Positions 5,915 to 11,419 of a stretch of DNA of 45,101 nucleotides are shown piece after piece; position 1 is the first letter of the stretch; every line of letters begins with the position of its first letter. Made by a program: the position numbers and the translations under genes. This DNA is from Balneolaceae bacterium. Lineage in GTDB: Bacteria > Bacteroidota > Rhodothermia > Balneolales > Balneolaceae. A model generated the notes under the pieces. It was not told where the DNA came from and did not search any database. It saw nothing but the letters and a program-made list of their open reading frames with translations. The stretch is taken from the NCBI GenBank assembly GCA_020832225.1, contig JAFIFA010000127.1, positions 1 through 45,101 of the forward strand, written 5' to 3'.

Positions 5915-6973
5915 ATGAAATCTTTAAAGTATCTATCGATTCTTATTGCAGGCCTCCTGGTCTTCACCGCGTGTGAAGACTCACAAGGGCCGGTACTGAA
6001 CAGCGACGTTGAACCTCCGGTGATTGAATCTCCGGATTCCGGCACCAGCTACGTTCTCACCGAGGATGATGAGGAAGAAGAGCTGATGACCATAGAGTGG
6101 AGCACGCCCGATTTTGGCTTCTCCGCAGCTGTGGACTATCGTGTGCAGCTCTCCGTTGATGGCTCATTCGATGACGCCGTCAGGGTTGGAGACAGCAACA
6201 GCAGTTCTCTTTCTCCTACTGTGGGAAGCGTAAATAGCGCACTAATAACTGCGGGCCTTCCGTCCGGAGTTGAAACCGAAGTATCTTTACGGGTACGGGC
6301 AACGCTGAGCGACAGTAATGAAGACCCGCTCTACTCAGATCCAATTATGCTGGGCTTTACACCATATGCACAGGATCTGGATCTGCCGGAAATCTATGCG
6401 ATCGGAAACTTTCTGGAGCCGGGTGGCTATGGTAACGACTGGGACTGGGATTCTGCAGTCGCTCTCTTTGGCTTTGACAGCGAAACCGAATATTCCGGAT
6501 TTCTCTACTTTGATGCAGATGGACTGGAGTATAAGTTCGCTCCCGAGCGCAGTTGGGATCTTGACTGGGGAGATGATGATGCCGACGGCAACCTGGACGA
6601 AGGTGGCTCCAACATCACAATGGAAGATGCCGGATTCTACCGGTTCTCAGTGAACACCGAAAACCTCACCTACTCCTTCGAAAGGAAAGTCTTCGGATTG
6701 ATTGGAGAGGCAGCCGGTGGCTGGGATGACGGCGACGACGTGATCATGGAATATGACACTGAGGAGAACGTTTGGGTTGTTGAAGCCGACCTTGTGGCCG
6801 GTGAAATGAAGTTCCGAGCTAATCAAGAGTGGAACCTGAACTATGGCGATGATGATGGCAATGGCACTCTTCAGGAGGGCGGCGCAAACATCATGGTTGA
6901 TGCAGACGGTACATACCGTGTTACACTAGACCTGAATGGCCCGGTCTACACCTACAGCCTCGAGCTTCTCTGA
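5915..6973 (+). CDS. SusE/SusF-like starch-binding outer-membrane lipoprotein
   Basis: Predicted surface lipoprotein that holds starch near the SusCD complex. The start at 5915 (MKSLKYLSILIAG) is preferred over the ATG at 5909 because AAGGA at 5904-5908 abuts 5909 but is about 6 bp from 5915. The acylated cysteine is residue 20 (FTAC). A SusE-type N-terminal domain (TIEWSTPDFGFSAAVDYRVQ) is followed by two similar C-terminal modules. Each has a YKFAPERSWDLDWGDDDADG or MKFRANQEWNLNYGDDDGNG motif and then EGGANI or EGGSNI, the carbohydrate-binding repeats of SusE/SusF. It is third in the operon, with a strong terminator 60 bp downstream. It is 352 residues from the preferred start, near the usual size of SusE (about 390). 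Confidence 0.88.
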   Translation: MKSLKYLSILIAGLLVFTACEDSQGPVLNSDVEPPVIESPDSGTSYVLTEDDEEEELMTIEWSTPDFGFSAAVDYRVQLSVDGSFDDAVRVGDSNSSSLSPTVGSVNSALITAGLPSGVETEVSLRVRATLSDSNEDPLYSDPIMLGFTPYAQDLDLPEIYAIGNFLEPGGYGNDWDWDSAVALFGFDSETEYSGFLYFDADGLEYKFAPERSWDLDWGDDDADGNLDEGGSNITMEDAGFYRFSVNTENLTYSFERKVFGLIGEAAGGWDDGDDVIMEYDTEENVWVVEADLVAGEMKFRANQEWNLNYGDDDGNGTLQEGGANIMVDADGTYRVTLDLNGPVYTYSLELL

Positions 6974-7033: not shown

Positions 7034-7066
7034 AAGCCCGTCCGGAATATCCGGCCGGGCTTTTTT
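7034..7066 (+). terminator. Rho-independent terminator of the susCDE operon
   Basis: The stem AAGCCCG (7034-7040) pairs with CGGGCTT (7056-7062). The loop contains a further CCGG/CCGG pairing, and a run of six T follows at 7061-7066. It lies 60 bp after the susE-like stop codon. Confidence 0.9.
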
Positions 7067-7082
7067 GTTTACGGGGAAAGGT

Positions 7083-7441
7083 CTCAGGTTCAGGGCTCCA
7101 GGTGCAGCGCATAGCGCCATTCGCTAAGCGCTTAGCGAATGGCCAACAAGTCCCGTCAGGGACTAAACATGGGTAGAATATAGATCCGAGATATGAACCT
7201 CGATTCGCCGAGACGCAATTGTCGTAGAAGAACCCAATACAACCGAGGCGAAACAGGAGGAACCAATTGGGGAAAACCTATAATGGGGCTTTCCCTCTGC
7301 GCCTCGGGTAATGCATTTCCTTTATCGAGGTCAGCCCCTCGTTGCGGAATCTACGCCATTTCCTATCCCCGGGGCTGGCGCCCCGGGCTACCCATGTTTC
7401 ACCCCTACGGGGTGGGTCATGTATTAATTGTTGTTCTCTAA
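7083..7441. repeat. Palindrome-rich intergenic repeat, unit 1 of 3
   Basis: First of three head-to-tail copies of a ~360-375 bp non-coding unit; edges are approximate. It opens with a perfect 26-bp palindrome at 7117-7142. Short stem-loops follow: AGTCCC-gtca-GGGACT (7149-7164), separated CCGAGGCG/CGCCTCGG arms, CCCGGGGC-tggc-GCCCCGGG (7368-7387) and CACCCC-tac-GGGGTG (7400-7414). Short frames open here but none is shared between the three units, so they are not genes. The unit lies between the convergent susE and amylase genes, where REP-like elements usually sit. Confidence 0.85.
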
Positions 7442-7449
7442 ACTGAGCG

Positions 7450-7811
7450 GTTCAGCGTTCAGTGCTCAAGGTACGGGTTGCATTATACAGAGCATTGCGC
7501 CATGCGCTTAACGCTTCGCCAACAAGTCCCGTCAGGGACTACACATGGGTAGAAAAAGGTCCTGGATATCATCCCCCATTCGCCGAGACGCAATTGTTGA
7601 AGATGAACCGATCCATCCGAGGCGAAACGGGATGAATCAGAAAAGGGTAAACCCTTGCCCGGACTTTCCATCTGCGCCTCGGGTTAGGCATTTCCTTTAC
7701 AGAGGTAAGCTCCTCATTGCGGAATCCGTGCCATTTCCTATCCCCGGGGCTGCGCGCCCCGGGCTACCCATGCTTCACCCCGATGGGGTGGGTCCTGAAT
7801 TATATTTGTTC
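7450..7811. repeat. Palindrome-rich intergenic repeat, unit 2 of 3
   Basis: Second copy, offset 376 bp from unit 1 when measured at the AGTCCC hairpin (7525-7540). The stems of the internal hairpins are kept while loops differ: the GC-rich hairpin loop and the last loop (gat instead of tac) have changed. The opening palindrome of unit 1 is degraded here. Preserved stems with varying loops argue that folding, as DNA or RNA, matters. Confidence 0.83.
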
Positions 7812-7817
7812 CCTCAG

Positions 7818-8178
7818 TTGAACGCTTCAGGCTGCAAGGTGGATGGCATAGCGCCATGCGCTTAGCGCTTAGCGCATCGCCAACAAGTCCCGTCAGGGAC
7901 TAAACATGGGTAGAAATAGATCCGAGATATCATCCCCCATTCGCCGAGACGTGATTGTTGAATAAGAATCCGATCCATCCGAGGCGAAACGGGAGGAACC
8001 AATTGGGGGAAACCTATACCGTGGCATTCCATCTGCGCCTCGGATTATGCGTTTCCTTTACAGAGATAAGCTCCTCATTGCGGAATCCGTGCCATTTCCT
8101 ATCCCCGGGGCTGGCGCCCCGGGCTACCCATGTTTCACCCCGATGGGGTGAGGATCTAGTCCAAAGTATTGTTCTCTA
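7818..8178. repeat. Palindrome-rich intergenic repeat, unit 3 of 3
   Basis: Third copy, offset 361 bp from unit 2 at the AGTCCC hairpin (7886-7901). It is very close to unit 1 in its middle part (shared GGAGGAACCAATTGGGG) and to unit 2 in its second half (shared TTCATTGC-like stretch and CACCCC-gat-GGGGTG). This mosaic pattern suggests gene-conversion-like exchange among copies. No coding capacity is conserved. Confidence 0.83.
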
Positions 8179-8220
8179 ATCTTGACAGTACAAGTCGCAA
8201 GTTCCCGGATGCAGGCCGTG

Positions 8221-8470
8221 TTTGACTAAACGCAAGGCGCATAGGGCAAAGCGTAGAATTTGTTTGGTTACTGGTTTGAAGGTTGCTGGTTGAAGGTTCC
8301 GCGATACTGAGATTTGGCAATTGCTGACAGCCCCAATACGAAGCGTGGGATCTGTCAATATTTGCGTTGTTGGTCGTAGACCGTCTTCCCGACGGTTCGG
8401 AACTGCGCCAAAGGCGCAGCACGTCTCACGTCTCACGTCTTTTTACTTTTCACCTTTCACTTCTCACTCC
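8221..8470 (+). repeat. Dispersed repeat family B, copy 1
   Basis: About 250 bp that recur as the reverse complement at 34178-34367. Shared blocks include AGATTTGGC, CCCCAATACGAAGCGTGGGA, AATATTTGCGTTGTTGGTCG, tandem ACGTCTC units and a pyrimidine-rich TTTCACCTTTCACTTCTCAC tail. This copy carries an extra segment at about 8386-8420 with two perfect hairpins: ACCGTC-ttccc-GACGGT (8380-8396) and CTGCGCC-aaa-GGCGCAG (8403-8419). Copy 2 lacks both hairpins. Nothing coding is seen. Together with the three palindromic units it fills the 1.5 kb between the susE-like gene and the amylase. Confidence 0.85.
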
Positions 8471-8524
8471 ACTCCGCGGCGATTCGCCATGCGCTACGCC
8501 CTCTACGTTATGCGCTCAACACCC

Positions 8525-11419
8525 TCACTTAATCAACGTCATCTTCTGTATCACAGAGTAATCTCCACTTGTTAGGCGCGCAATATAGACTCCGCTGCTA
8601 AGCCTTGAGCCATCAAACGTAATCGTAAAAGATCCTACCGGATGGCTTTCGTCATTAATCAACGTAGATATTCTGCGCCCCAGTACGTCGTAAACTTCAA
8701 TTGTGACGGGTGCTTGTTCGGGTACCGAATAGCTCAGGCTTGTCGATGCGCTGAATGGGTTGGGGAAATTGGGTTCAAGAATAAACTCATCGGGCAACCG
8801 GGCAAAATCATCCTCACCCACCGGGAAAAAGACTTCTGCCTCAGCCGGTTCCACAAATTCAGATGTATAGATTCGAAGCTCACCGGGTGCAAGATTTGCA
8901 TTGATGGATAGATCACCCTCAACCATCTCTGAACTCCCCTTCACAAACTCATACCACTCACCTTCTGCTGTGAAATCGATGGAGGTCTCGTTAAAATCGA
9001 CCCCGAAGTTACCTACAATGATGGCGTCCATATCATTGTGCTCCAGTCGTACCCACTTCACTTCTCCGCCCAGCGATGAGTTGAACTCTGTCTCTGCACT
9101 GCTGAACACAGGACTGGAGTGCCTTAGTCTGAGCAGTTCACTCCACGACTTGTAGAGCCTGAGCCGTGATTCATCTTCAAAATAGTCCCATCGCACCGGC
9201 TTCTCATCGGTACGTCCCGGATCAGAAGCTAAACACTCACCATCACTTCCATCGCCAGGCTTAAGGCACTCATTGTCGCCTGCGCCATATCCAAGTTCCC
9301 CGAACTGCCACAGCATCTTGGGTCCCGGAATAGTTAGGAAGAAGGCACCGGTCAGTTTCTGTCGGTTTAGAGCAACCTCAAGTTCTGTCACGTCATGCTC
9401 GGGATTATCGTCGTTGCCAAATGTAACATTCCGATACATCAGCCACTGCTCATCGTGGCTCTCCATATATCCGATAAGGTGTGGAAAATCCCAACCCGAT
9501 CGATTACTCCAATGTATTCCCTGGAAATTGGACTGGGAAGTGTATCCCATACTTGCCTGGCTGTAGTTCCGGTTATGGTTGCCCCAAAGCATCATCCCAT
9601 AGTTGGCCAGTTCACTCTCCTCGGAGTTTGCGGCAAAATGTTCAGCAATAACATAAACACCGTCATCCACCGCCCAAAGCTCATCAGCCATCCTTTTCAG
9701 GTTTTCAATTCGCTGAGGGTTATTTCCATCCAGCAGCGATCTGTCATCCACATTGGATGCAAAACCTTTGGTCAGATCAAACCGATAGCCGTCAACGTTA
9801 TATGTCTCAACCCAGTAGCGGTTCATCCGGTCGAGCCAATATTTGATATAGTCGTGGTCGTGATTGAGATGAAAGAATACGTTATAGGCATGACCCGGAC
9901 CGAGAAGTGGATTTCCGGTTTCAAAACTGTCGCTTCGATTGGTACCAAACGTTCTGATCAGCGGTGAACGGTCGTGTGCATGGTTGTATACCACATCCAA
10001 AATCACGGCAATTCCGCGACTATGGGCTTCATCAACAAACTCTTTAAAAGCCCTTCTCGTACCGTATGATTTGTCGAGTGCACCGTGAAAAACCGGGTTA
10101 TAGCCCCAGCTGAGGTTTCCGTCAAACTCCTGAACAGGCATCAACTCGATCGCATTGATACCCAGTCTCTCCAGGTAGTCAAGAGTGTCGGCCAATACGT
10201 TAAACGAGCTTTCATCAACAAAGTCCCGAAGAAGCAGTTCATAAATAACCAGTTCTTCCTGAGCGGGACGTTCAAAGTCGGTTACCTGCCATTGATACTC
10301 CTCACGACCCGGTTCAACAACTGTTACTTCATAGTCCGTAAGACCAGTTGGGTAAGCGGGCAGATCGGGATAGATCGAGTCATCAATAAATTGATCAAAA
10401 TTTGGATGGAGAACCAGCTCAGAGAAGAGGTCAGCTACACGGATTTCGCCATCGACCAGATACTGAAAACGGTAATAGTCACCCGGTGTAAGGTTCTCGA
10501 CGGTGATCCAGAAATGAGGACTGTCGGGATTGGTGTCGTCCAACTTCATGAAATACTCCTCCTGCACCTCCCACTCAGTTACATCACCAATCAGATAGAC
10601 AAACTCCTTGGCGGGTGCGAACATCGAAAAGGTAACCGTAGACCCATCTTCATGGTAGTTGATTCCATCCTCAATACCTGCGGGGCGCTGTTCACGAACC
10701 ACATCCGGATTTACAATAACGTAGAGGGAATCTTCTTCAACGGCTCCGGATGGATCTTCACCCACAACCCGAAAATCAGTACGCCCTTCATTTGAGACCG
10801 TATAGGTGTACTCTAACGTATTGCTATCCTCTGCAGAAGCAACTTCATTTCCATTCTCGAATAGTGTAATTGATGTGAGGGTTCCTGCATCACTATTCCC
10901 CTCCACCACAAATTCAATTGTCTCATTGAGCTCAGCAAAATAGGGATTGGGTGATGAAACCGATGGCTGACTGAACCGGATAACCAACTCTCCGCTTGCC
11001 AGATCAACAAAAAGATCTGATGTCTGAAGATTTGTATCGGCGCTTCGGAAAACAAAAGCGAGCTGATAGATGCGGTCTTCCGATGCGGGCAGATCATAAA
11101 AATCGCGGGGATTACCGATCTCAAGTTCCCAGATATCTCCCTCAATATTCTGAAGCTGGAGCTCTGGCAGGTTTTCACCCCAATCAGAAACAACATAAGA
11201 CCAGTTTCCGGTATCTCTGTCGTTCTCTGAAACAATTACACCGGTGTGGGCATATATATCTCCATCAAAATCCTCAAGTGCGGTACCCTCTGCATTAAAC
11301 TGAACCGTAATCTCATCATCCTCAGTTGGGAAAGAGGGAGTAGTCGAGATTGTTTGGGCAAAGATAGAAAGTGGCAGAAACAGCATTAACGCTGTCGTGA
11401 AAAGTAAACTTCGTTTCAT
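8525..11419 (-). CDS. Secreted GH13 alpha-amylase-family enzyme with T9SS sorting domain
   Basis: Glycoside hydrolase that should cut alpha-1,4-glucans at or outside the cell surface. The 964 residues start with a signal peptide (MKRSLLFTTALMLFLPLSIFAQ). Beta-sandwich domains follow (about 25-240), then a CBM48-like module (FSMFAPAKEFVYLIGDVTEW, about 262-340), then the GH13 barrel. Its conserved regions are DVVYNH (475-480), GYRFDLTK with nucleophile D548, VIAEHF with acid/base E593, and ESHDEQ with H655-D656. The last ~85 residues form a Por-type sorting domain (FILEPNFPNPF, YDVLGRRI, SSGVYIARL), so export by T9SS is expected. The start codon overlaps the lacI stop by ATGA, giving translational coupling. 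Exact specificity (amylase, pullulanase or neopullulanase type) is not settled. Confidence 0.93.
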   Translation of the reverse strand: MKRSLLFTTALMLFLPLSIFAQTISTTPSFPTEDDEITVQFNAEGTALEDFDGDIYAHTGVIVSENDRDTGNWSYVVSDWGENLPELQLQNIEGDIWELEIGNPRDFYDLPASEDRIYQLAFVFRSADTNLQTSDLFVDLASGELVIRFSQPSVSSPNPYFAELNETIEFVVEGNSDAGTLTSITLFENGNEVASAEDSNTLEYTYTVSNEGRTDFRVVGEDPSGAVEEDSLYVIVNPDVVREQRPAGIEDGINYHEDGSTVTFSMFAPAKEFVYLIGDVTEWEVQEEYFMKLDDTNPDSPHFWITVENLTPGDYYRFQYLVDGEIRVADLFSELVLHPNFDQFIDDSIYPDLPAYPTGLTDYEVTVVEPGREEYQWQVTDFERPAQEELVIYELLLRDFVDESSFNVLADTLDYLERLGINAIELMPVQEFDGNLSWGYNPVFHGALDKSYGTRRAFKEFVDEAHSRGIAVILDVVYNHAHDRSPLIRTFGTNRSDSFETGNPLLGPGHAYNVFFHLNHDHDYIKYWLDRMNRYWVETYNVDGYRFDLTKGFASNVDDRSLLDGNNPQRIENLKRMADELWAVDDGVYVIAEHFAANSEESELANYGMMLWGNHNRNYSQASMGYTSQSNFQGIHWSNRSGWDFPHLIGYMESHDEQWLMYRNVTFGNDDNPEHDVTELEVALNRQKLTGAFFLTIPGPKMLWQFGELGYGAGDNECLKPGDGSDGECLASDPGRTDEKPVRWDYFEDESRLRLYKSWSELLRLRHSSPVFSSAETEFNSSLGGEVKWVRLEHNDMDAIIVGNFGVDFNETSIDFTAEGEWYEFVKGSSEMVEGDLSINANLAPGELRIYTSEFVEPAEAEVFFPVGEDDFARLPDEFILEPNFPNPFSASTSLSYSVPEQAPVTIEVYDVLGRRISTLINDESHPVGSFTITFDGSRLSSGVYIARLTSGDYSVIQKMTLIK

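Follow-up and report, generated by a model that had tools for sequence, protein, structure and literature searches.

The transposases of the IS200/IS605 family and the RAYT enzymes fold and cleave the ends of their elements as single strands. In IS200/IS605 elements, the left end is not an inverted copy of the right end. Palindrome-associated transposable elements (PATE) derive from IS200/IS605 elements, carry no gene, have hairpin ends and are served by a Y1 transposase.

Subclass 1.2 of the TnpA-Y1 proteins, found in Bacteroidetes, is recognised by the motifs DH[IV]H, WQ and Y---Q--HH and a length of about 150 aa (Quentin et al. 2018, PMC6006769). The same survey lists the subclass as 'REP: no' and states that it 'does not share IS properties' (PMC6006769). 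The search was for canonical REPs with a tag at the hairpin foot, and we infer that a tag lying between two hairpins would therefore have escaped it. A later description of subclass 1.2 ends was not found in the literature searched, which left subscription journals and ISfinder outside. Here we describe a tandem array in a 45,101-nt stretch of DNA from a Balneolaceae bacterium (the window; contig JAFIFA010000127.1 of assembly GCA_020832225.1).

Results

Three units and their flanks are repeated in tandem at a convergent gene junction

Tandem Repeats Finder (TRF) reported a single array in the window, at 7109-8150 (period 361, 2.8 copies, 81% matches, score 1398). Copies of the hairpin AAGTCCCGTCAGGGACT begin at 7148, 7524 and 7885, at intervals of 376 and 361 bp, exactly the spacings of three tandem units given by a first-pass annotation made from the sequence alone. 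From hairpin to hairpin, sequence and alignment placed the element copies on the forward strand at 7148-7414, 7524-7790 and 7885-8150, with a unit length of 267 nt and pairwise identities of ~77-89%. We confirmed that the array lies at a convergent 3' junction, where a SusE-like gene of a SusC/SusD/SusE operon (+) ends at 6973 and an alpha-amylase gene (-) ends at 8525. An apparent SusE terminator, read directly from the sequence, occupies ~7035-7070, and the array follows directly behind it. On the other side, 8200-8520 is degenerate short-word sequence (CACGTCTCACGTCTC.., GGTTACTGGTTTGAAGGTTGC..); sequence of this kind (AACCTGCAACCTTAAACC..) adjoins many element copies across the genome.

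The strandless segments between the copies, spacer 1 (7415-7523, 109 nt) and spacer 2 (7791-7884, 94 nt), were homologous to each other (alignment score reached by 0/1000 shuffles) and to the outer flanks of the array. The duplicated flank before copy 1 (7104-7147, no strand) includes a perfect 28-nt palindrome at 7116-7143. With the homologous spacers included, the duplicated block spans ~7104-8200 and so reaches slightly past the limits of 7083-8178 that had been proposed. CRISPR arrays have short repeats with unique spacers of uniform length; the 267-nt units and homologous spacers here (94 and 109 nt) agree with the earlier view that this is not one. We rejected three independent insertions as the origin of the three copies, since the spacers are homologous; this homology points to one gene-less insertion that was probably followed by tandem duplication of the element with ~100 bp of flank. 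Flanks were less clear in three other arrays (C115, C201 and C98), and for C171, C228 and two other arrays the comparison aligned overlapping bases only, so that we claim no general duplication rule.

Among the relatives inspected for an orthologous junction, only a same-genus species (L156; G018:C15) keeps the SusE/amylase gene pair. Its junction has no such array, which fits an insertion in the present lineage, loss being also possible. Other palindromes are present there at 941-1500, with CTCGTGGCACG..CGTGCCACGAG inverted at both sides and GGCTCCGTAGGAGCC inside, as if such junctions were repeatedly colonised.

Each unit consists of two inverted ends with a tag between two hairpins

Each unit comprises two ~125-nt ends in inverted, face-to-face orientation, and the stretch between them holds no gene. 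An end consists of hairpin 1 (GTCCC/GGGAC-type), ~8 nt, the tag GGGTAG, ~25 nt and hairpin 2. The left side follows this layout with a GTCCC/GGGAC hairpin, and its hairpin 2 is a 45-nt core closed by TTCGCC/GGCGAA. In copy 1, left hairpin 1 (AGTCCC-GTCA-GGGACT) lies at 7149-7164 (+; also 7525-7540 and 7886-7901), and a pattern search placed the left tag CATGGGTAG at 7168-7176 (+; also 7544-7552 and 7905-7913). Left hairpin 2, in which TTCGCC...GGCGAA closes the ~45-nt 'CGAGG core', was delimited from 42 genome copies and lies at 7204-7253 (+).

The right side is the inverse, with a CACCCC/GGGGTG or CATCCC/GGGATG hairpin, the tag, a GC hairpin abutting the tag, and then the 45-nt core. Right hairpin 1 of copy 1 (CACCCC-TAC-GGGGTG) is at 7400-7414 (-; also 7776-7790 and 8136-8150) and the right tag CTACCCATG, from the pattern search, at 7388-7396 (-; also at 7764 and 8124). 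Sequence and alignment placed the adjoining GC-rich hairpin CCCCGGGGC-TGGC-GCCCCGGG at 7367-7387 (-), and genome copies placed the inverse core, CTGCGCCTCGG...CTCGTTGCGG, at 7298-7347 (-). Read as the reverse complement, right ends have GGGTAG followed at once by a hairpin (GGGTAG-CCCGGGGC..), the canonical REP layout with GT[AG]G at the 5' foot of one hairpin; we observed this on the window's right ends and not on left ends or most autonomous ends. In all window-type elements with a tag (27/27), 20-28 nt separate the tag from hairpin 2.

Diverged relatives are dispersed in the genome

Searches of the genome returned 33 matches to the unit, 3 of them the window copies, leaving ~30 diverged relatives; the long relatives outside the window were 69-74% identical to the unit. 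The half element gave 50 matches, and the pattern GGR-N6-YATGGGTAG occurred 55 times (3 for the reversed control pattern). Full copies aligned in the same direction were nearly constant in length (268-277 nt) despite 70-75% identity. The dispersed copies end sharply at the hairpins, and their flanks are unrelated; ~40 solo halves were present, and inverted doublets also occur.

The core was 45 nt long in 38/42 genome copies, and its closing pair shifts from G-C (22) to T-A (11). Entropies by phase were 0.76/0.61/0.65 and therefore showed no clear codon periodicity; upstream heads vary, and we rejected a protein-coding core. A second head without GGTAG (AGCCCTGAAAGGGCG..CACCAACCCAG-CCCGGGGC..) precedes the same core in some solo halves; the hairpin AGCCCTGAAAGGGCG-CACCAACCCAG-CCCGGGGC stands before the core ~15-20 times in this genome (L093-L107, G000). 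A similar head occurs at G023:C3:63693, ~170 nt upstream of a further Y1 gene, whose motif is YIARQEIHH (L248:464-919).

The same kind of end flanks Y1 transposase genes across Bacteroidota

The genome contains two full Y1 genes. One is a Y1 (PF01797) tnpA at L031:782-1243 on contig C90, a contig other than the window's, and encodes a protein of 153 aa (P0001). It is surrounded by ends of the same kind and by three complete gene-less 200-nt elements, and has no left end of its own within 220 nt. Hairpin 2 of this resident element (GTGCC..GGTAC) differs from the 45-nt core of the window units. Orthologues at 69-72% identity in three relatives (G003, G023, G039) have ends on both sides, same-genus relatives of the gene at <=61% are without such ends, and several relatives have the tag without a close tnpA.

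We rejected two other candidate sources on account of the different palindromes in their flanks. The second Y1 gene (L032; C20, 1459-1854, -) is flanked by AGGCTGAAAGCCT and GGGGTTCGCACCCC. The canonical IS200 copies (L033, L034 and L035) are three near-identical IS200-like tnpA starts at the ends of contigs C107, C83 and C9, where a recent multi-copy IS has interrupted the assembly.

A scan of GTDB genomes added 80 further tnpA loci. To score an end, we applied a strict test that required a perfect stem of 5 bp or more, then 4-11 nt and GGTA[GA], within 220-nt flanks. Among 79 related tnpA loci, an end was found upstream of 34, downstream of 38 and on both sides of 22; the rate in shuffled flanks was 1.4% upstream and 1.0% downstream. 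Distant flanks had an end in 38/1996 cases, which probably include some dispersed copies. A second perfect hairpin was present in 149/261 ends (32 after shuffling) and lay 20-29 nt beyond GGTA in 117 of these 149. The strict test found no such end at 42/96 related genes, which may use other tags. End type clustered on the tnpA tree, with 16 changes (shuffled mean 40.9; 0/200 shuffles as low).

Window and autonomous elements thus have in common the order hairpin 1, GGTAG, 20-29 nt and hairpin 2, and differ in hairpin 2 sequence. We observed these ends around genes with subclass 1.2 motifs across Bacteroidota. That this end signature is dispersed and flanks a Y1 gene here and in relatives supports the structure-recognising, Y1-type enzyme that the first-pass annotation had suggested.

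Five same-orientation hairpin-GGGTAG tags, 47-48 nt apart, lie directly upstream of a Cyclobacteriaceae tnpA (L168, 2255-2450). Related transposases outside Bacteroidota occurred in MAGs of Methylococcaceae (L183), Planctomycetes (L187 and L246) and Verrucomicrobia (L235), by horizontal transfer or wrong binning; L183 and L187 carry hairpin-GGTAG ends.

The cognate protein is IS200-like

The L031 protein scored 75.3 bits against IS200 (NF033573; cut-off 55) and 34.5 bits against REP_Tyr_transpos (NF047646; cut-off 80), with 102 bits against PF01797, and is related to solved IS200-type transposases. Its motifs DHVH (D54 H55 H57), WQ (W95 Q96) and YIQNQKEHH (Y115..Q119..H122 H123), together with its length of 153 aa, carry the subclass 1.2 signature. 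By its model scores the enzyme is IS200-type and not a canonical RAYT.

These scores bear on the alternative that the units are canonical REP/BIME (REPIN) elements of a RAYT transposase. The GTAG tag, the inverted doublets, the convergent intergenic site and a cognate Y1 gene between inverted copies would all be expected of such elements, as would the right ends with GGGTAG directly before a hairpin, and tandem reiteration of REP clusters with flanking DNA has been described (PMC3733652). However, the cognate protein is far under the REP_Tyr_transpos cut-off and over that of IS200, and because of this score we disfavour RAYT/REP membership. In most ends, moreover, the tag follows hairpin 1 on its 3' side and precedes hairpin 2 by ~25 nt, instead of standing at a hairpin foot, and the units measure 267 nt as against 20-40 nt. 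The REP likeness noted in the first-pass annotation is therefore close but stops short of a strict REP, given the paired bipartite double-hairpin ends, and we regard canonical REP/BIME elements as unlikely.

Stem changes are compensated among element copies

Earlier inspection had suggested that stems are kept while loops differ. In the three window copies this was true of CACCCC-NNN-GGGGTG and CCCCGGGGC-N-GCCCCGGG, but not of hairpin 1, which is the same in all three, loop included. The consensus structure of 13 aligned element copies was 95% paired. Eight pairs were changed on both sides, compared to a shuffled mean of 4.0 (6/500 shuffles reached 8); structures slid by 1-3 columns were 33-48% paired with 2-3 double-sided changes. 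Right hairpin 1 (helix 9 of the consensus) had compensatory changes among the 13 copies. The left hairpin 1 stem was conserved in 13/13 and so does not bear on covariation there. Genome-wide, hairpin 1 occurs in paired stem variants (GTCCC, CACCCC, CATCCC, GTCTC, GTCGC), and 80/90 tags have a perfect stem of 5 bp or more immediately upstream (2 after shuffling). Given these stem variants and the dispersed relatives, the units are neither unique to this site nor marked by uncompensated stem mutations.

Paired-stem conservation and the near-constant length of the core could also reflect a structured RNA gene family or a regulatory RNA arranged in tandem and maintained because the RNA fold is under selection. 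DNA recognised through its hairpins predicts stem conservation equally, however, and the array lies behind the apparent SusE terminator. The copies, moreover, are scattered and occur with two kinds of head, as solo halves and as inverted doublets, and the array sequence had no Rfam match at the gathering threshold. We consider an RNA explanation very unlikely. Local tandem duplication and drift of an intergenic repeat without mobile character would account for spacers duplicated along with the elements, but the scattered copies, bounded sharply by the hairpins and set in unrelated flanks, refute it as the whole explanation, and the link of the ends to transposase genes leaves it barely credible.

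Discussion

Our data suggest that the window units are, with high probability, non-autonomous mobile elements of TnpA-Y1 subclass 1.2 type, with two complete inverted ends and no gene. We favour this MITE- or REPIN-like reading because the ends match those flanking transposase genes with subclass 1.2 motifs. The presence of the same core behind a second head without GGTAG counts against it, as do the several relatives that have the tag but no tnpA close by. By analogy with IS200/IS605 and RAYT enzymes, the ends would be folded by the transposase while single-stranded on the lagging-strand template; it would then cleave close to the tag and rejoin, and the elements would spread in this way. The window units did not arise simply by deletion from the resident tnpA element, since the two differ in hairpin 2. 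This difference, and the lack of a left end near the resident gene, suggest that the enzyme that spread the window units may have been lost or may be a different relative.

More broadly, we lean towards the view that subclass 1.2 serves as transposase for a large group of elements found across Bacteroidota and marked by an undescribed bipartite inverted end, hairpin-GGTAG-hairpin, and that it drives gene-less elements, single ends and tandem arrays; the derivatives in this genome would share the 45-nt core, also found behind the second head. If so, an HUH subclass that the main family survey left without a substrate gains one, a class of large palindromic repeats between genes of Bacteroidota finds an explanation, and the cutting of symmetric ends by a class 1 Y1 enzyme becomes directly testable. 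The gap between IS200 (class 1, asymmetric ends) and RAYT/REP (class 2, inverted GTAG hairpins) would also narrow.

The units resemble REPINs and BIMEs with their RAYT (Nunvar 2010, PMC2817692; Bertels & Rainey 2011, PMC3116915) in their inverted doublets, GTAG-tagged hairpin, cognate Y1 gene between inverted copies and clustered, intergenic occurrence; unlike those, they have two hairpins per end around GGTAG, a 267-nt length and a class 1 (IS200-like) protein. TIRYT genes likewise lie between inverted TIR repeats with self-complementary tracts, which also occur as dimers and groups, whereas most TIRYTs belong to class 2.1 and bear a different motif, GGGGWSAS (Di Nocera 2013, PMC3733652). Like PATE, the window units are gene-less and have hairpin ends of Y1-transposase type. 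As for IS200/IS605 membership, the protein is an IS200-family TnpA, but the ends are inverted copies and not the non-inverted subterminal hairpins of that family. Subclass 1.2 itself agrees in protein signature, length of ~150 aa and occurrence in Bacteroidetes, and differs in that the genes described here come with bipartite inverted ends that are conserved, and with derivatives that lack a gene.
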